From Alligator mississippiensis (lineage: Eukaryota > Chordata > Crocodylia > Alligatoridae), in NCBI RefSeq assembly GCF_030867095.1, contig NC_081827.1, positions 212,531,310-212,595,309 on the forward strand: DNA of 64,000 nucleotides. Direction: 5' to 3'. Under the pieces are notes generated by a model that worked only from the letters and a program-made list of their open reading frames with translations, did no database searches and was not told the DNA's origin. A program made the position numbers and the translations under genes. Position 1 is the first letter of the stretch; each line of letters starts with the position of its first letter. Positions 9,947-63,618 of the stretch are shown piece after piece.

Positions 9947-10135
9947 TTAAAAATATTCAAAAATTCTCCCCCCTTTTTTACAACACAATCTCTTCTTTTT
10001 TTTATAGCTTGTATGGTCATCTTCATTTTCACTATCACAGACCATTTGGTAAACATAGCAGCTGAAGATGCGATTAGGTTTTTGTTCAATGTGTAACACT
10101 ACATCTCTGTCAAAGTAAACTTGGTGACTGTAAGT
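9947..10135 (-). CDS. DCAF17: DCAF17 exon 14 with stop codon (residues 486-547)
   Basis: The acceptor ATTGCAG|ACTTAC opens [20 protein letters not shown] and [11 protein letters not shown], matching the mammalian last exon. Mammalian DCAF17 ends shortly after an acidic stretch. Here the frame continues through [19 protein letters not shown] before the stop, about 16 residues longer. The extra tail is basic and lies over A- and G-runs, so a slipped run or sequencing error cannot be excluded. Confidence 0.93.
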   Translation of the reverse strand, partial: TYSHQVYFDRDVVLHIEQKPNRIFSCYVYQMVCDSENEDDHTSYKKKKRLCCKKGGRIFEYF

Positions 10136-18749: not shown

Positions 18750-18802
<53 letters not shown>

Positions 18803-21800: not shown

Positions 21801-24800
21801 GCCATGTGACAAATTAAAATAATTTGAATCCAATAATTTAATTTTTCAATGGTATTAAGCCACCTCCCAAAAATGTGGGGGGAAAGGGTTGCCTGATGTC
21901 CTGGCCACCAAAACCACCAAGCCCTTCTATATAGCTGTACTTCACCATGAGACAGAGACCTGCAAGTTGTGAAGAAAATAAAGACAGAAATACTAGTTTA
22001 AAGATGCTAAAGAGTCTAAAGAAATGGGTACATACACTGATGAAAAAGCTCCTGGATGAAGAATCATGAGTTAGCAGGCCAAGTGCTTGACCATATATCA
22101 GAAGTGAATCTAGCCTGAATAAGGTGATCAAGCTAAAGTGAAGGCTAAGATGGAGCGCTGACACATGTCCTATAATACAACATTTCAGGGTGGATAAAAA
22201 TCAGTGATTTTTTAAAGTAAAAAATCAGATTTTTATTTAAATCAGATTTTTTTATTTTAATCATATTTTTATTTCTTTTCTTAAGATGCTTTTTGTACAA
22301 AAATAAACTTATATAAAGATAGTTTTAATTTAAGATACGCTAAAGCTCAAAGATATCATAATGGAAAAGGGATTATAACTTCTAATTATATACTATCTGA
22401 GACAATATACTCGTAACTTTTTTAGAAGTTTTATGAATAGGTCACAACAGGACACAGACTGTATTAGGGGCCCAATCTTATGGAGTTCCCAGAGGATCTT
22501 CTATAGATTAGTAAAGATTAAAGAAAACCATTCTACCCAATGGGACTCAGTGCTCAGTCTAGAAGATCCCATTAAGCATCTCTGTGATGCTTAGTTTCAG
22601 TTCTCAAACTGTGGATTTGTGTCTCCAGAGATCATAGGCAGATAAGGTTTTTTTGGGTAGACGTGATATCTTTTATTACACCAACCAAATAGTTGGAAAA
22701 AATGTTCTTTGCAAGCTTTCGAGCACAAACACCATTCTTCAGGCATAGGGAGAGTTTGTTGTCTCCACAGATAACATCCTTGTTAACAGCAAGATATGGA
22801 GATGAGACATAACAGACCTGACTACCCATCCATCAGCCCTATTGTCTCTCTGCAAGTTTGTGTACACACAATTAAGCCTTTACCTCTCTCTAAATGTGCA
22901 GTTTCAAGAAGTTAAATGAATAAATGATATCAAACAACAAAAATGCACTTTTTGTAGAAAACAATGATTAAATCAAGGCTTCCTGACCAGTGATTTAAAT
23001 CAACTTGATTTAAACCAAAACCACCCTACATTTTTTTAAAAAGCTCATGTCTACAGAGAAATTACAAAAAAAAAAGGAACAGAACACAAATACTAAACCC
23101 ATTTATTTTGCAATTTGTTAAGACTCAGTGCTTCCTCAAAGATTCTTTTTGGCTGGCTGATCAGCAGGAAGCACAATAACTTGTCACCACTGTGAACACA
23201 GAGAATGCAATGCTATGGGTATATGAGAAGGGAGGAAACACCAGAAACAAAACCAGTGGAAAGAGAGTATTTCCATTACTCAGCATTCTTTCTTCTGGCA
23301 AATTCAGAACTGGTATTACTAGTTGATAGGGGTAATAATGTATAGTACTCCCTAGCAAGGGGTTAATCAGAAGAATGGGAAAACTGGTTTTGCTTCAGGG
23401 CTTTTCTCAATTCACCCTGTGAATAAAACAGATGTATATTAATTCCCGAAAAGCCATTTGAATACATTACCAAAGTATTGTCTTTCAGAGAACAAATATA
23501 GAAGACTCCTTTGTGCTTTTTATTATTAGGCGTGATGATGTAATGCCAAGGGTATCCTCCAATTTGAAATGCATTCTCTAAGGAAGACACTTCAAATAGC
23601 AAAGGTGGGGTATCTGTGAACATTGGTAATGTTGAGGTTATTAGCAGTCTCACAATTCTACTGGTCCTTAAAAGTCTAAAATCTCAGAACAGCATTCCTT
23701 CTTGAGAACTTCTGAAGACTAATCATATGCACCCAGTGAATCAAATTAAGGGCAGAAAGGTGTCCACATATGTAATGTAACAAAATAGAGTGGATTGTAA
23801 CTACTGTAATTTGCAACTGAATTTATAAAAAATAAACAACACATTGTAAGATTTTTATAATGAATATAAAAAGGATTCTAGATCTCCTTTCAGCTCATAT
23901 AAGACAAATTAATCAGAAAACTCTTCAGCATTAATGTGCTAGACTTATAAATCTTCTGTGCATCAATGAAAAAAGATAATTACCTAAATTTAATTCAAAT
24001 GGATACCAAGAGAGATTTATAAACCTCTACTAACTAGCTACCTAGAAATTCCTTTCTTAGACACTAAAAGTAAAGCCACCTTTTAGGGTGATAAACAGCC
24101 CTGTTTAAACAGCACAGAACAACACTAAAAAGACTGACAGAAAATTAATTTCAAGGGGAAATTTGAACATGTAGAACCTAAAACAGATTTTATCAAGTAA
24201 GATGGGAAAAATGTTTGCTTTTTTATTTTTTAATTACCAGAACTGGGTATGACTTCAATTTTATGCCTCTGGAAGACTCAACTTGCAGTATTAATTTTTT
24301 TCTTTGTACTCTGCTGGGACATTGATTCAGTGTTGCCTGAGGAAAGCATGCCATCTACTGAATTACCAATACCACTTTGTGCCGTACCTTGTTCTTTATC
24401 TTGGGATTACATTCAAATTCTGACTTGATCTTACCCTACTTAGTTTATGAAATTTAACAATCACCACTTGAGATGGGACAGCTGCATAAAGTATGAGATC
24501 TTACATTTATATTGTGCCACTCTCATGCCCATGTCAAGATTCAAAGCACTCAGTCAGCTATTGTGAGACAAATCATCTGCCACAGTAATAAAGCCACATT
24601 GGAGCCAGGAAGTGGCAGCTGGTTAACACCACACAACAGGTTAGGATTACTGAAGTGAAGATGACTACCTCCACAAGAGAGAGATTTCTGATCTACCTTT
24701 CAGAAAGTTTCTAATCAAGGTTTAATAAAGTATGGCCTATAGTAAATTACAACCTTGGAGAAAAAATACAGTATATGACTAGAGGGGTGGGAGAGGTGTC

Positions 24801-27800
24801 TAAGACATCTTGAGTTGATTAAAAAATGAGGGAAAAAGTCATGAAAACTTGTTAACTTTGTGCTGAAATGTTAATTTCATCAATTTATTTCTGACAGCCT
24901 AATCATTTAATTTAAAAAACAAGATAAACTAAGAATCCTGAAAAAGCTGAGTTAATCTCAAATCACAATAGCCCTATAGAACTCTCAAGCCTTCCTTATG
25001 TTTATGTTGTCTTTTGCCAAAAACTTTAACTATTACAAACCCCAAAAGCCACAGCAACTGCTGTGATGAGTTTGCCTCTAATCTTCATTCTTTCTTGTTA
25101 TATGTTGCTTGCTCTCATTGCCCAGCAGTCTACTGGTTATTACAATACTGTCTTTGTTCTTAAACTCTCCCCGTAGAAATGTCAGTCTTCAATCACCATT
25201 TGGGCTTCTTTTGTTCACTTCCACAAAATACTTGTCTTATCTAAATGAAAAGCCAGCTTGCTCCTGGTGGTACTAGCATATTTGTTCTAGATGTGGCAAA
25301 TTAATGAACAAGACACTTTCCTCTCCATTTTATGAAACAATTCAATAGTTACATAATAAATCCTTATTTTTCAAAAAGCAATTTAAAGTCCTGGGCTAGT
25401 TAGAAAGTGGCTTCATGAAGATTTGATTGCAAGTGCCCTTTCACTTATTTCAAATTTGTCCAAGGTCACTAGTACCTGATAATCACGAATAGTCAACACC
25501 TGTTTGGTGACCCATGTGAACTGAGCTATTGATCTCTGTGCAGCATATCCTCTTCACAAAAAAAAACACCATGACTGACACCCTTACTGGCAATCTCAGC
25601 AGAGAGGGCAAAGACTAAATAAGCATGGAGATTACCCTACTCTTATCTGTAGAAGTGGTCTCTCCAGGACCAGGTTGAGGTGCATTGACATAGCAGTGTG
25701 AGAAACCTTGCACTGCTTCTGTCCAGGATGTGGTTGTTCTGTGGAAAAATACAAGATTTCAAGTTTCCACAGCTTTGAAACCATCCACAAAGCATCAACA
25801 GTTAACTTACATCAAGCACAAGTTTAAACTCTGCCACCTTCAAAGAGATCGGTTGCTCCTTCACTGAAACACTACATTTCATTGCACGGACTGTCAGCCA
25901 TCTCACTTGTAAAAGAGAACAGCTCAAAAACCACAGGAATGCAAGTATCGCTGAACAGCGGCTATAGAAAGTATATATCAGAAGTTGAATAGTTTCTAAC
26001 CACAAAATCTTGAATAAGTCTCAAGATAAAAACAAAATGAAAAAAAAAATCAACCTTTTCTTTTGACTTTAAAGCTTGTGACCTAAAACAATAATGCTGC
26101 ATAGGCCATGAAAATATATCCAGTATAAACTGTTTCAAAGCTCTCATAGGCCTGTTTTCCACACGGCCTTCAGCACTAAATCATAATTGAGAAATCTGAG
26201 AGAGAGAAAACTTAAGAGAAATTTCCTAAACTCTTGTGCAAAACTTGAACCAAATGTAATTGCAGCTTTTATTTTTATAAGACATTACATGATTATTTAA
26301 AGCCTTAATTTATCTAGCTGTTTTTTCTTTGTATATTGCTTTAATTTTATACAAAGACCTGGCTTGATTTGTCTGTAAATGATCTGTCTTTGTGTCTGTA
26401 AATAATGAATACATTTTTATACAGAAAATCATTTAATACAAAAACATCCCAGATTTAAAAAAAATGGATGCTTAACATTGGGAACATGCATGCATATTAA
26501 TGACAGTGAAAGCTGACAAGACCTGAGCCCTTCTGAAAGTCAAACTACTCATCTAGGTGCCTAAATATGGACTGAAGAAGCTCCTGGGTTTTTTAATAAG
26601 GAAAAAAAATGCACATGCTGAAATGCGGAAGTCCTTGACTTGGGAAATACCTTAAGAAACATAGGGCCAAATTCTAATCTTAGATGCACCGGTGAAAAGA
26701 AGCGGTTTTTATCTGAAAATATAACAGTGTGTCTAAACAAAACTAACCAACATTTTTCCTGTTATGTGCAAAGCATCTGACATACTATACATAGCAAGAC
26801 TAATCAAAGTTAAGATTTGAATAAGTTACATTCTGTTTCCTTGAGTTCTCTCTGCAGGTTAGATTAGATACACTAGTTTAACACTAGAAAACAATTTTTC
26901 TCACAGCTAAGTCATTATGTAATGTTTCTCTCTGTTATTTAATAGTTGTCAGGTTTTCCCCCTCCCCCTGCCAGAAGGGGCTGTACAGGAAACCCTCGCT
27001 ATTTGCGGGTTTGGCATTTGCAGTTTCAAATATTCGCAAATGCCGAACCTGCATTTTAAATACACTTTATACATTTACAGGAGAGGAGCTCCTCAGGAGT
27101 TCTGCGCTTGCTGCTGCTGGGTTGCCGCTGCCGCCAGGCTCCTGCTGCTGCCACTGGAGCCACGCCCCCCCTGCTGCTGGTGGCACTGTGCTCATGAACG
27201 CAATGCCTTATTTGCAGATTTCGCCATTCACGGGGGATACGAGAACGTATCCCCCGTGAATGGTGAGGGTCACCTGTATTTCAATGGTGGGTGAAGGGGT
27301 TCCTGATTACTCATACCTTATAAAGTTTCTCAAATACTTTAATACCTAACAGTTAAAAGTTAAAACGTGGTTTTAACTTAGAAGAAAAGAGGAATAGAAG
27401 AAAAGTCCTATTAGTAAATTCTTGAGTTTTAGAGTAAATAGAGGCATATTTTTATTATAACATAATGGCAAACACAAATGAATGTGGAGTGTTTCTGATG
27501 TTTTTGCAAGTAGTGAAACAGCCATGAAATAATGGAAAGATGATAAATACCTGTTATTTTTATGTTGCAAGGAAGACCAAATGGATACTTTCCTACAATT
27601 CCAACTCTATTATTCCAGCTGAATTCACTGCCCAAATCAAAGTGCTGCTCCATGAACTAAAATAATGAAAAACAAATTAGCTTTATCAATACATGTTTAT
27701 TATCTGCTCAGTTTTACTGCTTTTGTTATTTAGTGCATTACTAAAACAGTTCATTTCAGCCTAAAATCCTGTCTTAATTACCAACAGATTTAATTTTTTT

Positions 27801-30800
27801 TAACTGGCAGAATTTAAATTAAATTCCTGTTCAACAGTTGATTTTCCAAAATAAATTCTGTTTCATATCAAGGAATCTTCCATCTAAGTTTCTAATGAAA
27901 CACTTCTGCTACAATAGGACTGATATGCAGAGTTCAGCTACCACTTGTTCTAGTATGTACTACCTATGTGGTACCTTGTTAAGATCTCTCACTCTTACTT
28001 TATACTATAATGGTGTTATGAAAATGATTTTATCCTGTTTGACACATTTCCTCCATTATAAAGTCCAGTTTTTACATATTGTACTACACTAATAATAATC
28101 AGTCTTGAGATAAATTGGTGTTACATTTCATGCTCTATTACCTGCTCAGAGATAGCCTGGAAGCTATAAAGCTTGACCAGGCCCACGCTATACATCACAA
28201 TCAGTATTCCATTAGAAATGGCAACATCCATGACGCTGTTTCCAAATATCTGGCTCAAGAAAAAAAGTGTGAGAGGGAAAAAAGATTCAGAAAAAATGCA
28301 AAACACCAAGGCTACCTGATTCTAACGTTAGCTTAATTAGCTTTACATACCAAAACTATCCAAAATTGGTAACTGTTTTAATTTTGAAATGTTTTTGTAA
28401 TCACTATCCTCAAGCTCAACCTGCAACATAATATTTTGCCCTTCACTATCACCTGATGTCAGATGCTTCACAAATATTAATTTTCAATGTCCCCAAGACA
28501 AATTTTTTTTGTGTGTGTTTTTATAGATGCACAGAGGAATGAAACTCAGAAGTCCCACAGCTGGTCAGTATCAGAGCTGGGAATACAATTTAGAAATCTT
28601 GTTTCTAACTCCTCTACTGTTCCTCCTTTACCAGAGGCAAGTATTTAGTCTAGTTATAACTCTGGGACATCACATAACTATGAAATTAGCTAGGTTATTA
28701 AGATGTCACTAAAGGTACAATATCAGATGCTTAAACTGTGAACCTGAATCCCAGTCATATGTGTGCCTGGAGAGCTGTTTATGGGGGCTGGACCCATGAT
28801 CTTGCAAAGTCCCTTCCAGCCCTGACAATCTATGAATAACTCCTAATGATGCTGTAATATTAATTTTGTTAGAAGTGTTTAACGTATCTCCACTAAGAAG
28901 AAAAATAAAGAAACTTTTCTTGGAAATAAACAAATTAAATTCATCCAAATTAATTTTGGGCTATGACTGACCTAACATAATGCCATTACATACTTCTTTT
29001 TATATGTAAAGCATTTATGAAGCGTTTTCACTGATAATCAGATGTATTGTCTAGAAATGTGGAGTTAAATTATTCTTTTCATAATCTTAGATGCTAGTAT
29101 GCTTTTATTTAAAATTTCTGGTTTGTGCCATATTCATTATATGGTTGCTCAATAATAATTCAGCTTTTTTGTTATAAACTGATCTAATTGATCGATTTGT
29201 ATGTGGTACTTTTCAGTGAAATTATAGCACTGCCATTTTGTGCCCTCTCATTCATCACCCCATTCTTACACTTTTCCCAGTAACTCCAGTAATTCCAATG
29301 ATTCATGAACTTCTGAACTCAACAAAGATGCTTCTTGACAAGTACCATAAAACCTCACTGGTAGTTCTCGCGTCAAAAAGCCCCAAAACACAGCACTGCA
29401 TTTATCTGTATATCGCAAGTTCCCATATAATACTCGCACCTTCTTTTGGGAAGGAAGTATGAGTATAAAAAAAGCTTTTTCCAGGATCTTAACTGCTATA
29501 GTATGGGCTCAACATGGCGTTAGGGAGGAGGGGCAGAGCCCACTAGTCAGCATCACTCAATGTCTAACTGCAGTTTTAGAACTACAGTTCTACTGCTCAG
29601 CAGCCATAACAGGGTTAAAACTAACTATGAGCATAAAGGAGGCACTTGCTGTCTCCTGACCTGTAGGAGAAGCACAGCTGTTATAAGGAGCCATTGGCAG
29701 CCATTACAGGGAGCCATTATACAGCAGCCATTACATGTTTCAATTCCAGTGAAGAAAATCAGCCTCCCTGCTTAAAACACCATTCCAATTTTGGAGGGCT
29801 GATTTTGGGGGGGAAAGGTACACATGGCATGAGTAAATATGGTATATTTAGAAGTCAGATTTCAAATAGGACATGTTTCCTCTTCACTGGCATTACCAGA
29901 CTCATCTTTTTATTATTTTTCTGGTATCTTTCCATCTCAGTGCTCATCAAAAGAATGTGCCTACATAATAATCTACCTAAATGGTCTAGGACAAGGCTGG
30001 CTGTCCAGCTTCAAAGACCCCAGGGGCCATATGTCCCATGCACTGCACTAGCAGGAACCATATAACATGGGGGCAGCACTATCAGGGGTCATGGGCCCCC
30101 CAGGCTGCACAACAGTGCAGGTAGGTGTTTCCTCCCTTTTGCACTATGTACACAGGCAGGTACCCCCATAGCACTGCACCATGCACGTGCATGCGATAGT
30201 GCTCCCCCACACAGTGTGGCAGTCTGCTGCACCTTCAGTTCCCTGCAGGCTCCCTTTTGGCACTGTGTTGTATGGGTACTCTGGACTGCTGTTGCCACTC
30301 GGGTAGGAGCATGCAGCAGAAGACAGGAGAGAGAGCCCTGAGACCCTGGCTGCTGCTGCAGCCAGAGCAGGAGAGGAAGGGGAGGATGGGTGGGCACTTG
30401 AGGGCCCATGTTAACCTTAATGGAGGCCGCATGTGGCTTGTGGGCCACTAGCTGAATAGTCCTGGTCTAGGATCCCCCAGGACCCGGTACTGGCCCCTTC
30501 ATTTGGATGCAGTCTGTGGCTACTGATATGTGGAAGGTGGAATGTCACTACACATTAATGCAATGAGCCATACATTATTTCCACAAGTTGTAAGAATTAG
30601 TCCTGCATTACTGCAATGTGCAGTGACCCAACTCAATGCCTTTTAAATAACTAGGCCTGAGACTATAGTTAATATAGAAAATAACTCACTTTTTTGTTTA
30701 TCTCCAGCATTCCAATAAAGGAAAGAGGTAGAACTCTGAACACAGCAAGAAAAAACAGCACAGACTGTTGGATGCCTGCCTAAGGAAGAACAGCAATAAT

Positions 30801-33800
30801 GAGCAGAATTGTTATACTCCAGGCAATTCTTACATGGTACGGCACGTATCTAACCATATGAAACCTTAATAAAAATTATTAACAGTGTCTTGTGCTCTCT
30901 CTGAATAAGGGAAGTTCTCACCATTTTACAGACGTCAAAACTCAAACACTGGGAAACGGCATCACGCTGAAAGTCATAACAGAGGCCTGGGATATCTCTA
31001 AGCTCCTGCTGCTGTGTTTTATTGCAAAACAAGTCACTTTTTATCTCAAGCTAAAACAGAGAGGGGAGTATCTCTGGGGAGCAGAAATCAGCAGCGTACC
31101 TATAAGCTGGGGAACATCCTTCTTATCAGCAGAGAGGCAGAAAGGGAACTTAGAGTCATTGTTGGCTCCAGGTTGAACATGAGCCGCCAATGCGAGGAAA
31201 CTGTCAGTAAGGCTAACCGCACCTTGTCATGCATCCACAGATGCATCACAAGCAGGTCCAGGGAAGTGATCCTTCCCCTATATGTGGCATTGGTCAGGCT
31301 CCATCCAGTTTTGGGCACTGCACTTCAAGAAAGATGTGGCTAGCACTGAGAGGGTCCAGAGGAGGGCCACTCGCATGATCAGGGGGCGGCAGAGTAGGTC
31401 ATACGAGGAGAGACTAGAGGGTCTGAACCTATTCAGCCTCCACAAGAGAAGGCTGAAAGGGGATCTGGTGGCTGTCTGCAAATTCACCAGGGGGGGAGAT
31501 CAGCAGGGAATAGGAGATGCCCTGTTTCTCTGGGCACCACACGAGGTAACTAGGAATAATGACAAGTTGATAGAGAGCAGGTTCAGGCTAGACATCAGGA
31601 GGCATTACTTTATGGTTAGGGCGGCTAGGACCTGGAACCAACTTCCAAGGGCAGTGGTGCTCGCTCCTACCTTGGGGGTCTTTAAGAGGAGGCTGGGTAG
31701 ACACCTGACTGGGGTCATATGAACCCAGCAGCCGTTCCTGCCCAAGGCAAGGTGTTGGATTTGATGATCTGTTTAGGTCCCTTCTGACCCTAGCTACTAT
31801 GATACCTGCCAGATGGGGCAACTAAAAATATTTCTCTTTGAACTTCTGTACAAGCCCTGTAAATATTTGGCTACATATACCTCACCTGACAGGATGAGTA
31901 AACCTACCTGTCGTGCTGCTGCTGAGAGCTTCTGCTGAACAGACTTTACAACCATAATCTCTTGAGGAGAATCCCAGTTCAAGTACCTGTTGGTGATAAG
32001 AAAAAAGCCTTGATGTTAGTATTAGTTTAGTCACTGTCTAAAACCTTCTTAAAGTAAATGGCCCATTTCACATAATCTAATCTAGATTAGATTATGAGAG
32101 TCCCAGGCCAGATCCCAAGGTCTCAGCCAACTCTGCAAGCTCCATGAACTGAGTTTTTAGGCTCTGAGCATTAATGGAGCTGTTTCCCATGATCTGAATC
32201 ACTCTCCCTATTAGACAATGCAAAAAAACACTGTACAAACTTGTGGATAGTAAGGTTGTCTGCTGTACATTTTCCTCTGCTTTTCATAAACTACTACTAT
32301 GATTCTGAAGCAAGAGAGGGATCACTTCCTCTGAGAAGTGGGGTGGAAGGGGGATGGGAAGCCTGGTGTCCTGCTAAAGACTAAAATGGATACATTGTGC
32401 AAAAGCATATGCATACAGTTAAAAATTGCCTGTTTCTAAATTGCTAATAATATTTTTCCTGTGTTTTATGAAGTTTGCTTTGCAGAGTTTAAAGAGACAT
32501 TCTAGTATGTTGTTATTGCAGTATTAAAAGTTGTAAAATTGGAAGAGGAAAGCTAGTATTAGCATGAACTTGTGGCTTTTTTGTAGCACATGCTCTTCTG
32601 GACGGGTTACTGGAATTTAGGGACAAATCTGAGACCATAAACTTAGACTGCTGAAGTTTAAAACTGTCTTTAAAGAATATGGCATGTGGGGATTGTGTCC
32701 AAGAAAGGTACTAGACTGAGAATCCCTCTCATCCATAAAATAGGTAAAGCTTAGGACCAGCACTGTAAGCTTCCCCTTCCTGTACCAACAATGTGCCTTC
32801 ATCGTGATTGGGAGGGAACTCCTTGACTATAATTCACCTCCAATCACTGGCACCTCTGCAGAGTCTGCAAAAGATGGGAGTCACTGAAGAATTTTGGGCT
32901 GTACTCTTTTCCTGCTCTGATATAAATTCCATCCAACAAAAAATACATTTTTACAGTTCTATGGTTATAGGAAGTATAGTATAAAGCAACGTTTTCTGAA
33001 TACATAGAAACTTAATAGCTTAACATACAGAAAAATAAAAAATATTTCCCCCAGTACTGCAATAATGCTATGAAAACATTGCTTATGTAAAGCTCAATCA
33101 ATATTTAGTACCTGAATTTGCAGTAGGATCCTGCAAGGTATATTTTTTCCAGTATTTCACCAGTATTAGCAGAGAGACGAAGGAGCCAGTTCTGAGCTGT
33201 CAAAACTGCAAGCGAAGTTTTATAGTCTGAAAGACTGGGCAATGTTTCCCCCTACATAAAAAAGATCAGTAAAAGAAGTCTGAACATGCAACCAAGGAAA
33301 GTCACAAGGCCTGGAACCATGAAGTGACCACAAAACAAAACAGTGGTTGAGGGTAATAAGCAGGCTCCTACAACATCAGGCCTTATACATTGTTAAATCA
33401 TATAAATCAATGACAATTGCTTACTGCAAAAAACACTTGCTTTTATGTATTCTGCAGTTTAAAAAAAAACCCTAAGTGTATGGCCTACATGAAGATTAAA
33501 GATCAATTTTTTAAATCCCAGTTTTCCTTTTTTAAGCCACAGTTTGCCAATATGATTGTGCAGTTGATCATGTAATTTGATATCGCTTAGTCATGAGGTA
33601 ATTGAATAATCATTGCTATTGTGCAATAAATTATTCCATAGTAACAGGCCTTTGCGGTTCTGGGATAAAAGTGACTTCAGTCCAGAATAATGATTCCACT
33701 CACAAAGCAGCGTAATTAGCCTGGGATAGTCGATTTATCTTGAAACAGTGTCCAAGTGGGGTAGTAATTATAGAATAGGTAATTGTACTAAAATAGCTAA

Positions 33801-36800
33801 TTATTTTGGAAAAAGCTATGCCCATCAATTTTGCCCATGTAGACAAAGCTTTTAATGTCTAACTGCCTGATATCAAATAGCTGGATCTCACACCAACTGT
33901 ACCCACAAAACAACAGATGGAAAAAATATCAAGGCTGAAGTCAAATTGAAAATAAATTTATATTAGCAATGGATAGAATTTACAAATCTTGAAAAAAAAG
34001 TGGAAGTAAAATATTCTACAATAGAAACAAAACAAGATTATGACACTTAACACAGAGTGATCAAAGCTATTATTTTAATTTTTTGGTGAATTTTTAATAT
34101 TCTTTTTAGATTTTCCACTTGTGGAGCACCTTCTTCTGATAATCCCCAGCTGCTTTTTAAACATAACTTAAAATAGGCTTAAACCCTGATATATGAGACA
34201 TAATGGCTATTTTCACAAATTTTGGAGGAGAGATTAATCATTGCGTTTTTTTGTCTTAAATCCATGTCTACCTACTAAGGATTAGAAGGTTGTGGATTTT
34301 CTTCTGAAACTTCTGGTGCTGGAGACAAGAGGCTGGACTAGATGATCCTTCAGTCTGATCTAGCATGGCAAGTACAATGGTCCTATATAGCATTAGTAGC
34401 TTAAATGTCTACACTGCTATGGAACAGATAATAAAGTGAATAGTAGAAATGTAGAGCCCTTTTTGAGTTAACAGTACACATGCACAATCTTAAAAGTTAG
34501 AAAATGTTCTTTCCTTCTTTTTCTTCCCCCAATATGGCCAAAAATGACTGAGTAAATTTTGGCAGGAGGCAAGGGAGATTTGCACTTTATACACTAACTA
34601 AATCAGAGATTTATAGCCTAAGTTTTCATGAGCCCAAGCTCAATTCAAATGCTGCCAGATGAATAAATTCTGCTTAAACTTCTAAAAGTTCACCTTTGTT
34701 CTGAGAGACAGCAAGGCAAATTTCAGTCTAAAAATTACATTTTAAGACATTTGTGAACAAATGAAAAAGAATGTTAAAATTACAATGTGGTAGTAATCAC
34801 TGAGATGTAGAGTTTCATATATATTATGCACCAGTTTAAAAGCTTCAATAGAATAGCATTAGAATTCTTCTGGGGTCTATAACCCTATTACTGTGTAAAT
34901 TGAAGTTACACATATATCAACAAGATGGTATGCCCCTAAAGATTCTGCCAAAAATAAAGAACATATTGAAAACTTTAAATAAACCTTATACTTTGCATGG
35001 AATTGTTTTAAAAAATGATTCCTTCATTCACAGGGGAGGAAGGTCTCTATTAGTAAGGCTGTTTCATTGAAAAATACCAGCCACTTATGTGCTATGCGAT
35101 GATCGTCATTCCTGACAAGCAATGTGATAGTCCTTAATAAGAACATTGTTACAAACAAAGCAAGTTACCTATTAAACAACTACTCCAAGCAAAGACTAAC
35201 ATATTAACATGCACTACCTTGAAAAGTTACTCCTCTTAATGGAAAAGGTTAGAATAAAGCAGATTATACAGTCTCTGAATATCTGGCTGCTTCCACTGAA
35301 ATCATAGCAAACCTTCCACCATTTTCACTGGGGGCCATTTACAGACATCTGAAGTTAAAATTGACCCTTAAATTACTGCAAACAATTTCAATTTTGCCCT
35401 TGTCATTAGTAAACAGTTCTTTCACAGCTAGATCAGTTACATCTTTGCTTTTCAAAATTCCTTTCAAAGTAACCTTACCAGAGGACATTCCAATAATAAA
35501 GCATCCTCTATTTTTTCTGATTTAGAACATGGTGGCATTTGATAAAGTATTCTTGGCTCTCCTGCAATGCTGAAAAAAAAAGATTACAAATGATCAGTCT
35601 ATTTTATAAATTACCTTCTGTCAACAGGTCATTTTGTGGATTGTTATAAATCATTACCTCTTCCTCAGGCAGGGAGCAATCTCAACTGTCCAGCATGCTG
35701 GACTATTCTTATTTTGCTAAGGGTCACTTTACATTACCCTCAGACTACTGAGCAAGATTACTGTAAGATGCTGTTAAAAAGCTCACCTTTCCTTGGGAGA
35801 AACATTTAAAAAGATTTAACAGTAATGCTCTTTAGTAAACTGTATTTTTCATTTTTTTTAAGTATATTAAAATTTACTCAGAAGCTAAAGAAAATCACAA
35901 ACCCACCTCACTTACTACTCTACACTTTTTCAGCTCTGCCTACTTTAAAGTAAACACATAGCTGCCTATACATATATTTTAAAAAATGAAAACACTTTAC
36001 AATGTACAATCTTCTCTCTACAGAGGACAGGAGTTAAAGTAGGGCTGCCCTACTTGTGGCTCGTGAGGAGTTAAACCTGAGGCTCTCACCTAGCCATCAC
36101 TCCCTGCGTTGCTCTGGCTGCTGCTTCCTGCCTTTGCCCCCTGGGGACAAGGCAGTGTGGTGCAATGTGGGAAACTGAGGGTGAGTCCAGGTTGTGCAGG
36201 GTGGGGGGAATCATGCCCTTGTCTAGCAGCAGCGAGGGGTGGGGGTGATAGGGATGCCCAGTACGGTGGTGAGGGGGTACAGCAGTGCAACACTGGAGAG
36301 GTGCCAGTGCAGTACGGGGAAAGCATCCATGAAGCCCAGTGGCCTGTGGCTTGCCTGATGTGACCCATGCAGTGTCCAGCTCCTGTTGGTGTGGACCTGG
36401 GTACTTAGAAGTTGGACAGCCCTGAGATAAATAATGGACCACACATGGCCCATATTCTTCATGTTGTTTAATGCAGTACTGGTGGATGGTCAGATGCTGC
36501 AGTGATAAGCAGTAGAATCATAGGGAATTAGGGCTAGAAGGGACCTCAGGAAGTCCATCTAGTCCAACCCCTGCCCAAAGCAGGACCATCCCAAACTATT
36601 TCATCCCAGCCAAGGTCCAGCCCAGTCTTAAAAACATCCACAGATGAAGATGCCACAACCTCTCTGGGTAACGTATTCCAGTGCTTTACCACACTCCTAG
36701 TGAGAAAGTTTTTCCTATCTAACCTAAACTTCCCTTGCTGCATCTTGAAACCATTGCTCCCGTTATCTGCCACCACTGAGAACACTCTAGCTCCATCATC

Positions 36801-39800
36801 TTTGTTGTTGAAGGCTGCTTTAAATCCCCACCTCAGTCTTCTCAGCGTGACTGAAGTCCCCCATAAGAACCAGGGCCTCCCACTAGCTGAAGAAGAAACT
36901 ACAGATACTAGAACACTGGTTTGTAACAAGTTACTGGACCAAATTCTGTCAGATGTATTTGTGTAAACCTAAAGTAACTTCTTAATTATATTGTGTAGCT
37001 GACAAAATCATTAGGCCCACAAAATACTGTTGTGTACTGCATCACAGCATTGCATTATACATCTTATTGGTGCAAGAAACCATTTAGAATGAAAGTCTTC
37101 TCATCTGTGTTACTTATGACAGTGCTGAGAAGTCCTTTATAGTTTAAGAGCTATACAGTTTAGCAGTATAAGTCTCTTAAATGTGTTTCCATTTTTGTCC
37201 TCTTCTTTGGGCCGTATTTGTATTTGCAGAGCATATGTACCATATTCATTTATATGGTTGCTCAATAATAATTCAGCTTTTTGTTATAAACTGATCCGAT
37301 TGATCGATTTGCATGGGGTACTTTTCAGTGAAATTATAGCACTGTGTTGCCATTTACACAATGGAAACCACATGTTAAAAAGGGACTGGATCCAACAAAG
37401 TAATGAATACCCTCAATCCCCTTTAAATTATGAAATAAGGCAGGGCAAGGACATCTTGGAGCAGAGTTGTCCAACTCATCCAACCTCACAGGCTGGATTA
37501 ACATCCTTGAGCCAGTCTGCAGGCCAGACTGGGACTAGCTCTTTGTAGAGTGGCCACAGCATTGGGTCTAGCTTGCATATCACATGCATCAATCCCTGGG
37601 GCCTGAACAGGGCTAATGCTGCTCTTGTGCACTGGTTCCGGGGCCAGCAGGGCACTGTATGGAGTGTATGCCCTGTGCCAACCCCTTGTGCCACATGCTG
37701 TGCATGCAGGCAGCTCAGTCCTGCACACACGTGCCAGCCATGGGGCTCACTGTAGTGCAACCTCTAGGGTCAGCAGGGGGTGCGTGTTGCAGGCATTGCA
37801 TGGGCTGAACCCATCACTGCACACAGCACGGGGGTCCGGGGCACAAGTCGCTTGGGTCCAACCCACACACCACATGCAGTGTGCAGGGCTAGGGCCAATG
37901 CACAGGGTTGGTCCAGCAACCTGCACACTGCATTAAATGACACCATGGGCCAGATCCAGTCTTCAGGCCATTATGTTTGACACCCCTACCTTAGAGGCTA
38001 ACTAAGAAGCATATAAGATTTCGTAGGTAACAGCCTACTTCATTAGATGCTACAAAGTCTGAAGGGTGCTCAAAATTTTGTAAGATTGAGAGTAGATTAC
38101 TGCTCACAGGACCAGTGTTTCCCTTGCCAAAGAACAAGGTCCATAAGTCATCACAGAATAGCCAGAGCATTAGGAGATAAAAAAATGAGCATCTAATCAT
38201 GCAAACACTGATGTATGTATTTTACTTTTGCTTAGATGAGTAATCCAATGGGAGTACTTGCATGAGCAAAGTTATGTACATGTCTAAATGCTTGAAAGAT
38301 CAGAGCTTTAGTGATAAAGTGTAAAGTAATGGAAATTTTCCATCATATTACCTACTGACACAGCACCGATAATTGTCAAAATAGATTCTTCCACTTTCAT
38401 AAGTAATAGGAGATGTGGAATGACTTGTCCAAACTTTTCTGAATTTAGTACTTTCCTGTAACAGAAAATAAATAGAAGGTTGTTATAACAAGCTGCGGTT
38501 CTGGAAAATATTTCATTTGCTTCTGCAAATTAATGACTGACTTTTTCAGGATTCATGGTTGTGAACACATAAAGGATTTTTATCCAAATAAAAAGGTCTG
38601 CAGAATTGTTTTTAATAATTCTATAACCATGTACTGGGTATATCCAATTGTGGGTAGAAGAAACATTAAAATAAGGCAAGCATATTTTTTAAATAATAAA
38701 AATTGAAAAATAACTGAAAAAATTGGTGTTGGAGGAAAAGGCAGTAAAACTGATGAATGGACCTTTGCAAGTAAACTAGGGATAAAACTGAATGAAAGGA
38801 GATCCTTTTCCAGTTTATGGACAGCACATAAAATACATTTTTAATCACTAACTTAAAATTGGCTACAAAAGTTTAACCTTTCACACTGGAAAATGATAGG
38901 CCCAGATCTTACCACTGTGCAAGAATACCCTTATGTATGTAATTCCATGAGGTTTCTCAACATCCTCCTCCCCATGAGCTGGGGAAGGCAAAGGGAGTTT
39001 GTAAACTTGTTTACATAAGGATCCCAAAATGTGAATGAGTTTAGTGACTAATCACATGTATAAAATTAGGCATGTGCAGGACCTTTACCTGTAGCATTAA
39101 CAAAGGCTTGGATCCTACAGTAAAAAGTGTGCAGGCCAGTGGTTCTCAACCACTTAACACTCAAGGCACATCTTGTTCAACTGAAGAAACCCCTCAAAAA
39201 ATTCCAGCTTTTAGCTTTCCCTCATTTTTTGACTACAAAAATAATAACAGAGCAGTTCTTTTCTTGCAAAAAAATCTTTTTGACCCTATGTGTTCCTATT
39301 TGAAATATCAAGGTTTATGTTGTGAATTTTGGGTATGTGTTGGCATATCTAGTATTGTACAACACCCTTAAAAAGGAAGTCAAGGCACCCCAGTGCCATG
39401 GCACCTTGGATGAAAAAGCAGGGCCCAGGCAGATGACAAACAGACAAGAGTCCTGTTCACTTTAGCATGCCTCTCTGTGGGTGCAGGTATGCAGACACCT
39501 CCATAGAGATCTTGGCTGTATGAATGGGGCCTAGCCCCTTCTAGCTTGCTACAAGTAAAGTTTTATTAAATGTCTGTGTTCATCCCAGTCAGGGCATGGA
39601 TGATCATTTCAGTTTCCTACCAGGGTAGTGTTCGGCTTCCAGCCACAGGACGTGTTTGTGTTTACTAAAAAAAAAACAACATTGCCTTCCTTCACTGGGT
39701 AAAGAACTTGACTGAGTTTAGCGCGGGAGACCCAACGTGAAGAGAACAGCGATCCCTTAAAACACTGCCATCCGCGTCAACGCCAGATAGGACCAGACAC

Positions 39801-40164
39801 CCGGATTAGGACATTGCAGGGAAAAGGTTTTCCAAGAGGCAGTGTTATTAGTTAGTCAAAAGCTTGATGAGCAGGGAGCGCTGGGGGTGGGGTGGGAGGG
39901 CTCCCCGTGCGTATCTTGCAGGGATGAAGGACTCCTCATCAGCCCAAACTCCGGCTCCAGCCAGAATCCCAGCTCCTTGCCTGGCTGCCAGGCGGTGGGG
40001 AGCGTTACCTGGCACAGCAGCCTCCTGAGGATCCCTAGGTTTTTCCTGAGGACGACCCCAGCGTCCTGAGCGTAAAACCCGCGCGCCCGCCCGCCTAGGA
40101 GACGGCAGACATTGTGGGGGTCTCGCGCCCCGCGCCAGGGGGTGACGGCGGCTCCGGGCCCCAT
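9947..40164 (-). CDS. DCAF17: DCAF17, DDB1- and CUL4-associated factor 17 (14 exons, 547 aa)
   Basis: DCAF17 is a putative substrate receptor of the CUL4-DDB1 ubiquitin ligase. In mammals it is nucleolar/nuclear, and its loss causes Woodhouse-Sakati syndrome in human and male infertility in mouse. Fourteen exons joined by GT-AG introns sum to 1644 coding bases (547 residues plus stop); human has about 520. Blocks shared with the mammalian protein, compared from memory, include DAGVV and NLGIL in exon 1, FDNYRCCVS in exon 2, [11 protein letters not shown] in exon 3, ILEKIYLA in exon 4, NGILIVMYS in exon 7, [16 protein letters not shown] in exon 9, [10 protein letters not shown] in exon 12, [15 protein letters not shown] in exon 13 and [10 protein letters not shown] in exon 14. 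No frameshift or internal stop is present. The N-terminus is about 10 residues and the C-terminus about 16 residues longer than human. It lies head to head with METTL8, as in human. Confidence 0.97.
10136..10767 (-). other. DCAF17: DCAF17 intron 13
   Basis: 632 bases of AT-rich DNA in which I recognise nothing. Confidence 0.8.
10768..10923 (-). CDS. DCAF17: DCAF17 exon 13 (residues 434-485)
   Basis: The acceptor CATGAG|ACTTTC and donor GATGTG|GTGAGT bound 156 bases encoding [33 protein letters not shown] and LESWDV. Phase 0 at both ends. Confidence 0.98.
10924..13612 (-). other. DCAF17: DCAF17 intron 12
   Basis: The only repeat is a short piece at about 12295-12360 (GTTGGTCCAAT...GATATCACC), related to the piece at 22645-22750. 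The rest shows no feature that I can support. Confidence 0.75.
12295..12360. repeat. Short interspersed-repeat piece
   Basis: The words TTTGTGCTCAAAAGC, GTTGGTCCAATAAAA and GATATCACC correspond, in reverse complement, to the repeat at 22645-22750. Such sequence is widespread in amniote genomes. I cannot name the family. Confidence 0.5.
13613..13696 (-). CDS. DCAF17: DCAF17 exon 12 (residues 406-433)
   Basis: The acceptor CCTCAG|GTGAAC and donor AAGAG|GTAATT bound 84 bases encoding [20 protein letters not shown] and PEQE. Phase 0 at both ends. Confidence 0.97.
13697..17549 (-). other. DCAF17: DCAF17 intron 11
   Basis: The intron holds a long, decayed CR1/L3-type LINE on the plus strand (about 14700-16515). 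The remainder is AT-rich with nothing recognised. Confidence 0.8.
14700..16515 (+). mobile_element. Old CR1/L3-type LINE, reverse transcriptase and 3' end
   Basis: A degraded LINE of about 1.8 kb. Recognisable stations are CCACAGGGGAGTGTCCTGGG (15577-15596, the PQGSVLG region of reverse transcriptase), CAGATGACGCAGA (15660-15672, the ADD catalytic box), GCCTCAGCTGGAGTACTT (16021-16038, the PQLEY motif) and a tail at 16470-16515 (GGATTAGATGACCC, CTTCCAAACC). The frame is broken many times, so it is an old insertion. It lies antisense within DCAF17 intron 11. Confidence 0.8.
17550..17637 (-). CDS. DCAF17: DCAF17 exon 11 (residues 376-405)
   Basis: The acceptor TTTAAG|AGTCTT and donor AATATT|GTAAGA bound 88 bases encoding [20 protein letters not shown] and IIVANRENI. 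It ends in phase 0. Confidence 0.95.
17975..18088. repeat. hAT-like 3' end fragment
   Basis: The text GGGTTGGATCCAGCCTGTAG and GGTTGCTGACTAGG resembles the ends of the hAT MITEs in this window (compare 37940-37988 and 42720-42735). The left border is unclear. Confidence 0.4.
18762..18799. repeat. (AT)n microsatellite
   Basis: About 19 AT repeats immediately left of a DNA element. More AT repeats follow on its right side. Confidence 0.95.
18800..19356. mobile_element. hAT-like MITE inserted in an AT repeat, 557 bp
   Basis: The left end is TAGGGCTGTGTAAAGCTTC. The right end complemented is TAAGGCCTGTGCGAAATG. Internal ATTCGATTTGG, GAATCTGAATC and AATCGAATCACTG motifs recur near both ends, giving long subterminal inverted similarity. 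Flanking octamers are both ATATATAT, but the target is an AT repeat, so this is weak evidence. The middle is GC-rich and non-coding. Confidence 0.75.
20166..21047. mobile_element. hAT-type foldback element, 882 bp, exact 8-bp target duplication
   Basis: Termini are TAGGGGTGCACTGATA and TATCAGTGCACCTCTA (one mismatch as inverted repeats). The octamer GATTTATT flanks both sides exactly (20158-20165 and 21048-21055). Interior arms at about 20256-20430 and 20705-20870 are imperfect reverse complements (shared words GGCATGG, GAGGGAGGA, TGCCCAGCT, GAGCTGCGG). No transposase is encoded. Relatives lie at 57590-58622 and 59340-59591. Confidence 0.9.
21180..21289 (-). CDS. DCAF17: DCAF17 exon 10 (residues 340-376)
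   Basis: The acceptor TTTCAG|GCAAAA and donor ATTAA|GTAAGT bound 110 bases encoding [20 protein letters not shown] and [14 protein letters not shown]. It ends in phase 2. Confidence 0.97.
22187..23027. mobile_element. DNA element with AGGGTGG termini, about 840 bp
   Basis: The left end is AGGGTGGATAAAAATCAGTG and the right end is TTAAACCAAAACCACCCT. Subterminal AT-rich words (AAATCAGATTTTT and GATTTAAATCAACTTGATTT) are inverted relatives. Flanks TTTC and ACATTT give only a poor target duplication. An unrelated repeat piece is nested inside at about 22645-22750. There is no transposase. Confidence 0.7.
22645..22750. repeat. Interspersed repeat nested in the AGGGTGG element
   Basis: Contains GATATCTTTTATTACACCAA, GCAAGCTTTCGAGCACAAAC and CATTCTTCAGGC, a sequence type common in reptile genomes and transcripts. 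I recognise the text but cannot name the family with certainty. Confidence 0.5.
23471..23613 (-). CDS. DCAF17: DCAF17 exon 9 (residues 292-339)
   Basis: The acceptor TTCACAG|ATACC and donor ACTTTG|GTAATG bound 143 bases encoding [40 protein letters not shown] and SLKDNTL. It is one of the best conserved exons. It ends in phase 0. Confidence 0.98.
26986..27276. mobile_element. Tigger-like (Tc1/mariner) MITE, 291 bp, TA target
   Basis: The left end is CAGGAAACCCTCGCTATT and the right end GGTGAGGGTCACCTG, each next to the dinucleotide TA, as in Tc1/mariner insertions. The CAGGTNACCCTCG-type terminal repeat fits the pogo/Tigger group. A perfect 18-base hairpin lies at 27224-27263. No transposase is encoded. 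A reversed relative lies at 55399-55553. Confidence 0.8.
27224..27263. repeat. Perfect 18-bp hairpin in the Tigger-like MITE
   Basis: CCATTCACGGGGGATACG, loop AGAA, then its exact reverse complement. The copy near 55410 keeps the same palindrome in weaker form. Confidence 0.9.
27551..27656 (-). CDS. DCAF17: DCAF17 exon 8 (residues 257-292)
   Basis: The acceptor TTTTAG|TTCATG and donor AACAG|GTATTT bound 106 bases encoding FMEQHFDLG and [12 protein letters not shown]. It ends in phase 1. Confidence 0.97.
27657..28141 (-). other. DCAF17: DCAF17 intron 7
   Basis: 485 bases of AT-rich DNA in which I recognise nothing. Confidence 0.8.
28142..28249 (-). CDS. DCAF17: DCAF17 exon 7 (residues 221-256)
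   Basis: The acceptor AGCCAG|ATATTT and donor GAGCAG|GTAATA bound 108 bases encoding [20 protein letters not shown] and [16 protein letters not shown]. Phase 0 at both ends. Confidence 0.97.
28457..28640 (+). mobile_element. MIR-like SINE remnant
   Basis: The words CAGAGGAATGAAACTCAGAAG and CCCACAGCTGGTCAGTATCAG, then AGCTGGGAATACAATTTAGA, follow the MIR/CORE-SINE core order (cagaga.. cacagc.. agagctgggaatagaac). Strongly diverged and old. Confidence 0.6.
28765..28840 (+). mobile_element. CR1 3' tail fragment
   Basis: GGGGGCTGGACCCATGATC, then GTCCCTTCCAGCCCTGACAA and TCTATGAATAA, is the standard CR1 3' end. Short and truncated. Confidence 0.75.
29128..29238. repeat. Copy A of a duplicated ~115-bp segment
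   Basis: It matches 37240-37355 with only a few substitutions and small indels, from CCATATTCAT through TTGCTCAATAATAATTCAGC and ACTTTTCAGTGAAATTATAG to CCATTT. Both copies are in the same orientation in DCAF17 introns. The family is unknown. Confidence 0.85.
29992..30464. mobile_element. hAT MITE, 473 bp, exact 8-bp target duplication
   Basis: The left end is CAAGGCTGGCTGTCCAGC and the right end complemented is CAGGACTATTCAGC. The octamer GTCTAGGA is exact on both sides (29984-29991 and 30465-30472). The GC-rich interior has no transposase. Confidence 0.85.
30690..30779 (-). CDS. DCAF17: DCAF17 exon 6 (residues 191-220)
   Basis: The acceptor CCTTAG|GCAGG and donor AAAAAA|GTGAGT bound 90 bases encoding [18 protein letters not shown] and IGMLEINKK. 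It is a hydrophobic stretch, as in mammals. Phase 0 at both ends. Confidence 0.97.
30895..31010 (+). mobile_element. MIR-like SINE remnant
   Basis: CACCATTTTACAGACGTCAA, ACTGGGAAACGGCATCA and CATAACAGAGGCCTGG follow the order of the MIR core (cattttacagat, gaggcacagag, cacagc). Highly diverged. Confidence 0.45.
31080..31803 (+). mobile_element. CR1 LINE, 3' part, nearly open frame
   Basis: The frame covers the end of the CR1 polyprotein. [40 protein letters not shown] and LVR are in one frame; [39 protein letters not shown] and [16 protein letters not shown] are in another. So one frameshift lies near 31300, and the coding end is at 31722. The 3' UTR ends with CTTCTGACCCTAGC and TACTATGATA. 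It is 5'-truncated, as usual for CR1, and antisense to DCAF17. Confidence 0.92.
31908..31986 (-). CDS. DCAF17: DCAF17 exon 5 (residues 164-190)
   Basis: The acceptor CAACAG|GTACTT and donor CGACAG|GTAGGT bound 79 bases encoding [18 protein letters not shown] and SAAARQ. It ends in phase 0. Confidence 0.97.
31987..33111 (-). other. DCAF17: DCAF17 intron 4
   Basis: No transposon is recognised. A perfect 26-base palindrome lies at 32071-32096. Confidence 0.8.
32071..32096. repeat. Perfect 26-bp palindrome
   Basis: CATAATCTAATCT followed directly by its reverse complement AGATTAGATTATG, with no loop. It lies in DCAF17 intron 4. Confidence 0.9.
33112..33251 (-). CDS. DCAF17: DCAF17 exon 4 (residues 118-164)
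   Basis: The acceptor ATGTAG|GGGGAA and donor TTCAG|GTACTA bound 140 bases encoding [20 protein letters not shown] and [17 protein letters not shown]. It ends in phase 2. Confidence 0.97.
33252..35478 (-). other. DCAF17: DCAF17 intron 3
   Basis: The only repeat recognised is a short CR1-type 3' tail at about 34285-34370. Confidence 0.8.
34285..34370 (+). mobile_element. CR1/L3-type 3' tail fragment
   Basis: GAGACAAGAGGCTGGACTAG, then ATGATCCTTCAGTCTGATCT and AGCATGGCAA, matches the classic LINE tail (ctggactagatggacc...ggtctgatccagcatggc). Confidence 0.65.
35479..35569 (-). CDS. DCAF17: DCAF17 exon 3 (residues 87-117)
   Basis: The acceptor TTTCAG|CATTG and donor CTG|GTAAGG bound 91 bases encoding EPRILYQMP and [16 protein letters not shown], nearly the mammalian exon. 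It ends in phase 0. Confidence 0.97.
36040..36424. mobile_element. hAT MITE, 385 bp
   Basis: The left end is TAGGGCTGCCCTACTTGTGG. The right end complemented is CAGGGCTGTCCAACTTCTAA. Flanks AGTTAAAG and AGATAAAT match at 6 of 8, probably a decayed target duplication. The GC-rich interior is non-coding. Confidence 0.75.
36511..36850 (-). mobile_element. CR1 LINE 3' fragment
   Basis: In minus orientation the peptide words [29 protein letters not shown] and VDVFKT are followed by GGGTTGGACTAGATGGACTT and TAATTCCCTATGATTCT. It is the same subfamily as the CR1 at 56480-57360. Confidence 0.88.
37240..37355. repeat. Copy B of a duplicated ~115-bp segment
   Basis: Partner of 29128-29238. It differs by a handful of bases, one or two T-run indels and a 4-base TGTT insertion near the end. 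Confidence 0.85.
37462..37988. mobile_element. hAT MITE, 527 bp
   Basis: The left end is CAGAGTTGTCCAACTCATCC. The right end complemented is TAGGGGTGTCAAACATAATG. Flanks TCTTGGAG and CCTTAGAG match at 6 of 8. Interior GC-rich and non-coding, with GGCCAGATCCAGTCT at the right side. Confidence 0.75.
38352..38455 (-). CDS. DCAF17: DCAF17 exon 2 (residues 53-87)
   Basis: The acceptor TTACAG|GAAAG and donor CAGTAG|GTAATA bound 104 bases encoding [18 protein letters not shown] and [13 protein letters not shown], close to mammalian exon 2. It ends in phase 2. Confidence 0.97.
38456..40008 (-). other. DCAF17: DCAF17 intron 1
   Basis: The intron holds a hAT-like fragment at 39137-39425. The rest is unique-looking AT-rich DNA with no further support. 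Confidence 0.85.
39137..39425. mobile_element. hAT-like fragment with CAGTGGTTCTCAACC terminus
   Basis: It begins with CAGTGGTTCTCAACCACTTA, a terminal repeat common in amniote hAT MITEs, and continues to GCACCCCAGTGCCATGGCAC. The right terminus is not found. A related element is at 46575-46856. Confidence 0.55.
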
Positions 40165-40620
40165 GACCGGCGCGGGGGAGGCCGCGCCGCACCGCACCGC
40201 ACCGCACCGCAGGCCACGCCGACTCCTCCCCCTCACACGGAGCCACCTCTCGTCACGCAGCCCGGTGCCGCCCGCCGCCGCGCGGCGCCCTGGGTACGGT
40301 AGTTCCCCGAGCAGAAAGTCCGCAGTCGCCGTCTCGGCGCCGGGACTGCAGCGCCCGGCGGCCAGCGCGCCCAGCCCGTTGGCGTCACGCCGAGCTGCGG
40401 TTTCGGTGCTGAGCGGGAGCTCCGCGCTCCAGCCTCCTGGAGGCACGTGGGTGCAGGGCCGCCTTCGGGGCTCAGCCCGGCCGGGCACGGGCACGGGGCC
40501 CACCGAGCCCAGCCGGCCGCGGGCGCGGCACCAGCGCCGCGCAGTCACGTGGGCCGAGCTCCCCGGCGGCCTCCCTCGGACCGGCCTTCCCCCCAGCGCT
40601 GCCTTGAAAGGCTCGTGTTG
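39880..40620. promoter_or_regulatory. CpG island, probable DCAF17/METTL8 bidirectional promoter
   Basis: Dense CG dinucleotides and no TATA box. It covers DCAF17 exon 1 on the minus strand. In human, DCAF17 and METTL8 start head to head from one CpG island, and METTL8 exons lie to the right on the plus strand here. Two CACGTG E-boxes sit at 40444-40449 and 40546-40551. A (CCGCA)n run at 40187-40212 falls in the DCAF17 5' UTR. The METTL8 first, presumably non-coding exon could not be placed. Confidence 0.8.
40009..40164 (-). CDS. DCAF17: DCAF17 coding exon 1 (residues 1-52)
   Basis: The start codon (context CCGGTCATGG) is chosen because it gives MGP as in mammals and leads into [15 protein letters not shown] and [11 protein letters not shown]. 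The donor is CAG|GTAACG. The frame stays open upstream to 40647, but that part is GC-rich CpG-island sequence without recognised similarity. The exon holds about 10 residues ([12 protein letters not shown]) that replace a shorter mammalian stretch. Confidence 0.93.
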
Positions 40621-41560
40621 CCACGTAATCCTGCTAAACCCAGGCACAGGCGGTTACGGCGCATCCAGGGGTTGGTTTTTATTCTTTAAAGCAACAGGGT
40701 ATAAAATACATGGTTAGGCAAGACACCAGAATAGAAACAGGATTTTTACATTTCATTTTAGTTTGACCTCTTCCATACCCAGTCACGTGCTTTTCAGTTG
40801 ATCAGGGGAAAGAGACCAAAACAATCCTGAGAAGATGGGGCCCTCAGCAGGGTGAAGTGAGGAGATGGCTCAGCCCTCTCAGCTCCCTGTGGTGTGGTGC
40901 GTGCAGCCCCTGACCACACTGGCTGTGGGCTTTAAAGATAAATTTAGTGATTGGAAAATTGCTGAATTTAAAACTATGGAAACTTTTTTTTTCTTTTGGT
41001 AGAAGCATGACCTACACAAAGGCCAGTTCAGATCTTGGTGTAGACTCAGTTTTGTTCACAGACATTAAGATACTAATACTACTAAACTAAATGGTGTTCA
41101 AGGACTCATTTTATTTGGGGCATCAGAGCCATCACATAGCCATACTTTTTGGTCAGTATTGAACCGGACAGGATTTGTATTGACTCAGGTGCTGTAAAAA
41201 CTCAGACATGTATAAAAGTATTTTTATATATTTGCTTGATCCAGGGCTCAGGAGTGACCAGCTCTTTCCTGATGCATAGGATACGCAGTACCACATATTT
41301 GGGTATCTATTGAGGTACCTCACAAAAGACATTGCCAGAGCTGACAGCAGTTGGTAGCAGAGAATCCAAGCACTGAATGTGCCAGAAAAATCCAACTTCC
41401 TTCTTACCTATAAAGGTTCACAGATCAGGAGTGTGGCATGTTGATGTGGTTGTATAAAAGCTTGTGCTTCATTCATATGAACGCACACATACCGGCACAA
41501 CCCCATACTCCCTGGTCCAGCAATAGTGCTGGAGCAGTGCGGAGGCAGGAAGGCAGGGAA
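40620..41560. other. Probable METTL8 intron 1, unannotated part
   Basis: No recognised repeat or exon. Short open frames only. Confidence 0.45.
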
Positions 41561-54925: not shown

Positions 54926-55081
54926 GTCTCTCATCAAAATGAATTTCATTAAAAGATTTTCTGCTTCATATCTGAGGAAAAGCAAGATGCAGCAAAGATG
55001 CCAGAGTACCAAATGACCAACCATTCCACTTGGGTCACGGATTTTAACTGATCCTACTAAAGTTTTTTAACATAACATTTG
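54926..55081 (+). pseudogene. METTL8: METTL8 first coding exon, with two in-frame stops
   Basis: METTL8 makes 3-methylcytidine at position 32 of some mitochondrial tRNAs, and its N-terminus is the mitochondrial targeting signal. After the acceptor TTTTTACAG the ATG at 54939 opens MNFIKRFSASYLRKSKMQQR then CQSTK, similar to mammalian MN.I.......LR.GK..HRCQS. In the same frame follow IPLGSRILTDPTKVF and HNIW, clearly the METTL8 block PLGSRILTDPAKVFEHNMW. TGA at 55014-55016 and TAA at 55068-55070 interrupt it; the TAA stands where mammals have Glu. The donor TTG|GTAAGT and phase 2 are right for joining the next exon. Either the exon is dead, translation starts downstream, or the assembly is wrong. 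Similarity is from memory, not a search. Confidence 0.85.
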
Positions 55082-63529: not shown

Positions 63530-63618
63530 GGACCACATGCAGTGGTCACAAGAAGAAGAAAGAGCCAGGGAAAAAGTAGCAGAGAACTCACTTGTGAAAG
63601 TTCAACTGGAAGATCAAG
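63530..63618 (+). CDS. METTL8: METTL8 second recognised coding exon
   Basis: The acceptor TTTTTGCAG|G and donor CAAG|GTAGCA bound 89 bases. The first G completes the Trp codon from the previous exon, then DHMQWSQEEERAREKVAENS and LVKVQLEDQ follow. Mammalian METTL8 has DHMQWSKEEEAAARKKVKEN in this place. The frame is intact and it ends in phase 1. An in-frame ATG (63537-63539) could serve as a start if the upstream exon is unused. The methyltransferase domain lies in later exons beyond the window. Confidence 0.92.

Follow-up and report, generated by a model that had tools for sequence, protein, structure and literature searches.

Does an alligator whose METTL8 gene carries two stop codons in its mitochondrial-targeting exon still make the enzyme, in mitochondria or anywhere else in the cell? 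The question is raised by a stretch of 64,000 nucleotides (nt) from Alligator mississippiensis (hereafter the window; contig NC_081827.1, forward-strand positions 212,531,310 to 212,595,309), which holds the 5' part of METTL8, the mitochondrial transfer RNA (tRNA) methyltransferase that makes 3-methylcytidine at position 32 (m3C32). A previous examination of the letters (the sequence-only reading) had found the two stops and proposed that the lineage has lost the mitochondrial function, has shifted to a cytosolic start, or is losing the gene. Following the gene to its last exon, we found about nine lesions expected to inactivate it, and METTL8 is very probably a unitary pseudogene in this crocodilian. 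The METTL8 features of the window are listed below, with an exon numbering that counts a presumed non-coding exon 1.

54926..55081, plus strand: METTL8 exon 2, the first coding and mitochondrial-targeting exon, broken; 156 nt, identified by tblastn to turtle METTL8, splice sites kept, single genome match
54939..54941, plus strand: ATG of the mitochondrial form, whose frame is open for 25 codons only
55014..55016, plus strand: in-frame TGA in exon 2; turtle METTL8 has Arg at the aligned position
55068..55070, plus strand: in-frame TAA in exon 2, in a column where 149/149 distinct orthologue cores have Glu or Asp
55077..55079, plus strand: Ile codon in exon 2, in a column that is Met in 149/149 distinct orthologue cores
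63530..63618, plus strand: METTL8 exon 3, which is open but has one codon fewer than the turtle and emu exons (gap after 63560), with a weak donor, GTAGCA; from tblastn and junction scoring
63537..63539, plus strand: ATG proposed as a cytosolic start; it begins annotated shorter amniote isoforms and here leads into broken exons

Exon 2 aligns by tblastn with METTL8 of the olive ridley turtle at 40/48 positions (83.3% identity, E 5.8e-20) and with that of the emu at 68.8% identity (E 3.9e-15), a likeness that by these scores is far beyond chance, and it has a single match across the alligator's own genome (2,346,462,532 bases, 195 contigs). Its borders (acceptor TTTTACAG before GTCTC, and ATTTG before the donor GTAAGT) are well formed, and a split codon links it in frame to exon 3 at 63530. 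The METTL8-like frame, good acceptor, GTAAGT donor and correct phase originally described are confirmed, the coordinates given for them are exact, and both the TGA at 55014 and the TAA at 55068 lie in that frame. The TAA column holds 143 Glu and 6 Asp among the 149 distinct cores, a set reduced from 237 core-bearing proteins among 274 proteins fetched. Exon 3 had been described as intact; it is indeed open, but has one codon fewer than in turtle and emu, a gap that preserves the frame and was left out of the lesion count. The weak exon 3 donor (score 0.21) was also dropped as a lesion, because 3/13 donors of the neighbouring gene DCAF17 score below it, one of them (−4.36) probably misplaced. 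A cryptic donor upstream of the TGA in exon 2 (GT at 55006) was rejected since it would give phase 1 where phase 2 is needed.

The remaining METTL8 exons were found downstream on the same contig, in 100 kb read from near the window end onward, where coordinate p (down p) corresponds to window coordinate 62991+p. Exon 4 (down 12245-12638) is preceded by TTCTAA, with AA for the acceptor AG; its two halves lie in different frames, indicating a net frameshift, and the first frame hits a stop at down 12412. Exon 5 (down 13239-13288, 50 nt) ends in CTACG followed by ATAAGC, with AT instead of the donor GT. Exon 8 (down 21038-21143) measures 106 nt against 107 nt in the matching exon of METTL2, leaving its end out of phase with exon 9, and the last exon, exon 10 (from down 25570), contains in-frame TGA, TGA and TAA codons at down 25632, 25671 and 25695. 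Exons 6 (down 17350-17413), 7 (down 17746-17885, 140 nt) and 9 (down 21244-21309, 66 nt) are open. Exon borders were drawn from protein similarity and are supported by the intron phases of METTL2. The total of about nine lesions, in exons 2, 4, 5, 8 and 10, comprises five in-frame stops (394 codons read piecewise), two net shifts of frame and the loss of two splice dinucleotides, and no open methyltransferase reading frame was found. The two stops of the targeting exon are two of about nine inactivating lesions across the gene. Read-through or RNA editing of stops was considered and set aside: exon 2 alone has two, and the frameshifts and splice losses persist regardless.

This distribution bears on the proposed shift to ATG 63537, by which METTL8 would survive as a cytosolic or nucleolar enzyme with the targeting exon alone lost. 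The Met matching that ATG starts six METTL8 isoforms elsewhere (P0122, P0142, P0152, P0164, P0042, P0051; from turtle, birds, bat and jackal), exon 3 is open, and excerpts of PMC8752778 place human METTL8 lacking its first 20 residues in cytoplasm and nucleus. A product begun there would, however, meet an exon 4 without acceptor or continuous frame, an exon 5 without donor, an exon 8 one base short and three last-exon stops, and no crocodilian-named protein occurs among 120 of the 125 exon 3 matches. The shift is contradicted by the broken exons and is hardly credible. An intact alternative first coding exon, also envisaged by the sequence-only reading, fares no better. Three open plus-strand candidates lie in 40100-63500 (at least 15 codons, donor score at least 3, phase 2), and a crude filter for targeting sequences let through one of them (52150-52397) and 0/6 control-strand candidates; that one would in any event lead into the same broken exons. 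As an observation in its own right, 52150-52397 (plus strand) combines an open frame, a strong donor in phase for joining exon 3 and a crude targeting-like score. The suggestion that the gene is being lost is borne out, with the loss apparently already complete. No METTL8 protein would be readable from either ATG 54939 or ATG 63537. Mitochondria are therefore predicted to lack m3C32 if neither METTL2 nor METTL6 provides it.

Several observations identify the broken gene as the METTL8 orthologue and its state as that of a unitary pseudogene. It lies in divergent orientation beside DCAF17 and is closer to METTL8 than to METTL2 or METTL6, targeting exon included (83% to turtle in exon 2), while METTL2 and METTL6 occupy separate loci. 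Lesions occur in several exons; introns and synteny are kept, so the gene is neither processed nor duplicated; and full-length METTL8 proteins exist in birds, turtles, squamates and mammals. A genome-wide protein search of this assembly returned 19 matches, assigned to METTL8 (9), METTL2 (6) and METTL6 (4), with no second METTL8 copy or retrocopy and no functional copy elsewhere. Of the neighbouring features of the window, DCAF17 also served as a check of sequence quality.

9974..40113, minus strand: DCAF17, with 14 matches to coding exons; lies head to head with METTL8 and was used as quality control; 13/13 junctions placed without a stop; Pfam DCAF17 E 1.9e-177
40114..40640, no strand assigned: GC-rich stretch separating the DCAF17 and METTL8 5' ends, by eye a probable shared promoter

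One DCAF17 junction has a poor donor, probably misplaced by the script, and the Pfam score belongs to a product of part of the exon junctions. Since DCAF17 stands head to head with METTL8 and reads open, the region is taken to be the true METTL8 locus, with good sequence quality there; the human genes are presumably arranged head to head as well. Sequencing or assembly error, for which we found no support beyond the use of a single assembly, would have to account for METTL8 showing about nine lesions, of various types, when no stop appears in DCAF17 (14 exon matches, 13 junctions) or in the 387 codons of METTL2. All five METTL8 stops, moreover, keep their local frame, and departures from conserved columns also indicate decay. 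We give error almost no weight as an explanation.

Those departures were counted against 73 distinct orthologues, reduced from 179 proteins of 380-445 aa by removing duplicates and rows with >20 gaps. Among columns conserved to at least 95%, alligator METTL8 departs at 16/162, stops accounting for two of these departures, against an orthologue median of 1; at stricter cuts it departs at 7/84 columns (98%) and 5/52 (99%). These departures point to decay or relaxed constraint. On the relaxed selection for which the sequence-only reading proposed a test, the counts across the gene point to it, but the test is weak in exons 2 and 3 alone. In a tree of exons 2 and 3 (33 rows) the alligator sequence falls, with modest support, among sauropsids, outside birds (98/97) and, weakly, outside turtles plus squamates (80/70); the nearest sequence by identity is that of a turtle (86% over 74 columns).

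How old might the loss be? With a neutral rate, as used for crocodilians in the consulted part of PMC4299795, of 3.9e-10 per site and year, the nine lesions give 99-137 million years (My; range 45-260), the stops alone 206 My (67-480) and the conserved columns 107 My (58-178). These figures assume one rate and indel ratios of 0.08 and 0.15, were computed over 385 codons and 32 splice bases with CpG left uncorrected, and are to be read as orders of magnitude only. A loss roughly 100 million years old (45-260) is suggested.

Several points weigh against the pseudogene reading. At the 95% and 98% cuts 5/73 orthologues depart as often as alligator METTL8 or more often, and 2/73 do so at the 99% cut; these few may be faulty protein models. 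In exons 2 and 3 alone, 28 columns reach 95% conservation; alligator METTL8 departs at two of them, the TAA being one, and 16/149 orthologues have at least two departures. The alligator branch in the tree of these exons measures 0.094 against a median of 0.059, so that apart from its stops the sequence does not stand out. Exon 2 would be expected to hold 0.24 stops after 100 My and has two (chance of at least two, 0.025, CpG not modelled). Finally, the case is drawn from the DNA sequence of one genome.

The lesion-based ages are close to the alligator-crocodile split, dated to 97-103 My in the consulted part of PMC4299795, and the loss may therefore be common to living crocodilians. In a protein library that shows one name per 90% cluster, no crocodilian-named protein was found among 120 of 125 exon-3-directed matches (126 candidates), nor was a crocodilian-named METTL8-like protein found in the best 120 of 2917 or the best 120 of 4574 matches, in each case with no positive control for crocodilian proteins in the library. 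Exon 3 matches without a species name (P0127, P0130, P0248) are only 76-82% identical, among the matches listed, and the shorter forms of birds and turtle that start at the exon 3 Met (P0122, P0142, P0152, P0164) rank within the best 120 of the 4574. The absence of crocodilian names fits a crocodilian-wide loss, with the single name per cluster and the missing positive control counting on the other side. A recent loss, confined to this species or to alligators, would suit the nearness of exons 2 and 3 to turtle sequence and the fact that one crocodilian genome was read; against it stand the ages from lesions and conserved columns and the lack of a crocodilian-named METTL8 among the matches listed, and we regard it as possible but doubtful. 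On balance we lean, by a little, towards loss of METTL8 in all living crocodilians near or before their crown radiation, with mitochondrial translation proceeding since then without the m3C32 enzyme, the mark having been dispensable or a paralogue re-aimed.

If METTL8 is a pseudogene, what became of its substrates? On the mitochondrial contig (C195), tRNA-Thr (15424-15495, plus strand) reads C32 U33 U34 G35 U36 A37 A38 and tRNA-Ser(UCN) (6872-6942, minus strand) reads C32 U33 U34 G35 A36 A37 A38. Excerpts of PMC8752778 name U34, G35 and modified A37 as determinants for METTL8 on human mitochondrial tRNAs; both alligator substrates keep C32, U34, G35 and A37. By its lesions the enzyme gene is dead while its target sites remain. 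The consulted part of PMC8980813 reports that a METTL8 variant without the targeting sequence fails to rescue m3C in METTL8-deficient cells, and that of PMC8752778 that human cells lacking METTL8 have mildly impaired mitochondrial translation. Loss of m3C32 from mitochondrial tRNAs would be a plausible consequence of the death of METTL8, and the alligator looks like a natural METTL8 knockout.

This contig, a mitochondrial genome of 16,646 bases, has a tRNA order that includes Ser(AGY)-His-Leu(CUN) and Thr-Pro-Phe, an arrangement characteristic of crocodilians that supports the crocodilian lineage. If the anticodons are placed as by ARAGORN, tRNA-Leu(UUR) (2636-2710) and tRNA-Met (3816-3887) have C at position 33, where U is usual. 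Positions 2427-2501 are 75 N, probably masked or withheld sequence.

The modification could also have outlived its enzyme, with METTL8 dead and mitochondrial m3C32 made by imported METTL2 or METTL6. The genome has both paralogues. METTL2, on the same contig as the window (C4, 156.79-156.82 Mb), is complete: its nine coding exons, separated by eight GT-AG introns, start with an ATG and stay open for 387 codons. METTL6 (C5, 140.25-140.26 Mb) was recovered as five tblastn pieces, and the sole stop shown sits where the match apparently overruns the exon end. Retention of C32, U34, G35 and A37 in both mitochondrial tRNAs likewise speaks for this reading, but C32 may have been conserved for the sake of the base and not of its methylation. 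The METTL2 product begins MAVPCEPGAAPG, in which no targeting sequence is evident by eye, and there is no in-frame ATG from that start back to the upstream stop. Supply by an imported paralogue seems unlikely.

Compared with the intact METTL8 of birds, turtles, squamates and mammals, the alligator gene keeps a recognisable targeting exon, the exon order and the head-to-head placement with DCAF17, but carries about nine inactivating lesions and no open frame. METTL2, the cytosolic tRNA m3C32 methyltransferase, belongs to the same family and shares its intron phases, with exon lengths equal to those of METTL8 exons 5, 7 and 9 (50, 140 and 66 nt); unlike METTL8 it is open throughout. With other unitary pseudogenes and lineage-specific gene losses the alligator gene has in common its kept introns and synteny, lesions in several exons and the lack of another copy in our search, and it differs in that its targets keep the modified base. 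The putative loss of METTL8 is gene loss of a known kind, and in the open-licence literature we found no report of METTL8 loss among the titles and abstracts listed, and no paper on METTL8 in crocodilians or the alligator. A vertebrate that may have lived tens of millions of years without METTL8, with the target base kept, would make the in vivo importance of m3C32 testable, and raises the questions of whether another enzyme supplies the mark and whether diving animals of slow metabolism tolerate its loss. METTL8 variants have been linked to hypoxia tolerance in songbirds (excerpts of PMC7793309), which for diving reptiles is at most a lead.

An Rfam scan of the window gave no match that reached the gathering score. 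Long open frames also occur in the window at 49981-50919 (minus strand), 44513-45211 (plus strand) and 31014-31722 (plus strand), which we take to resemble reverse transcriptase fragments of CR1-type long interspersed nuclear elements.
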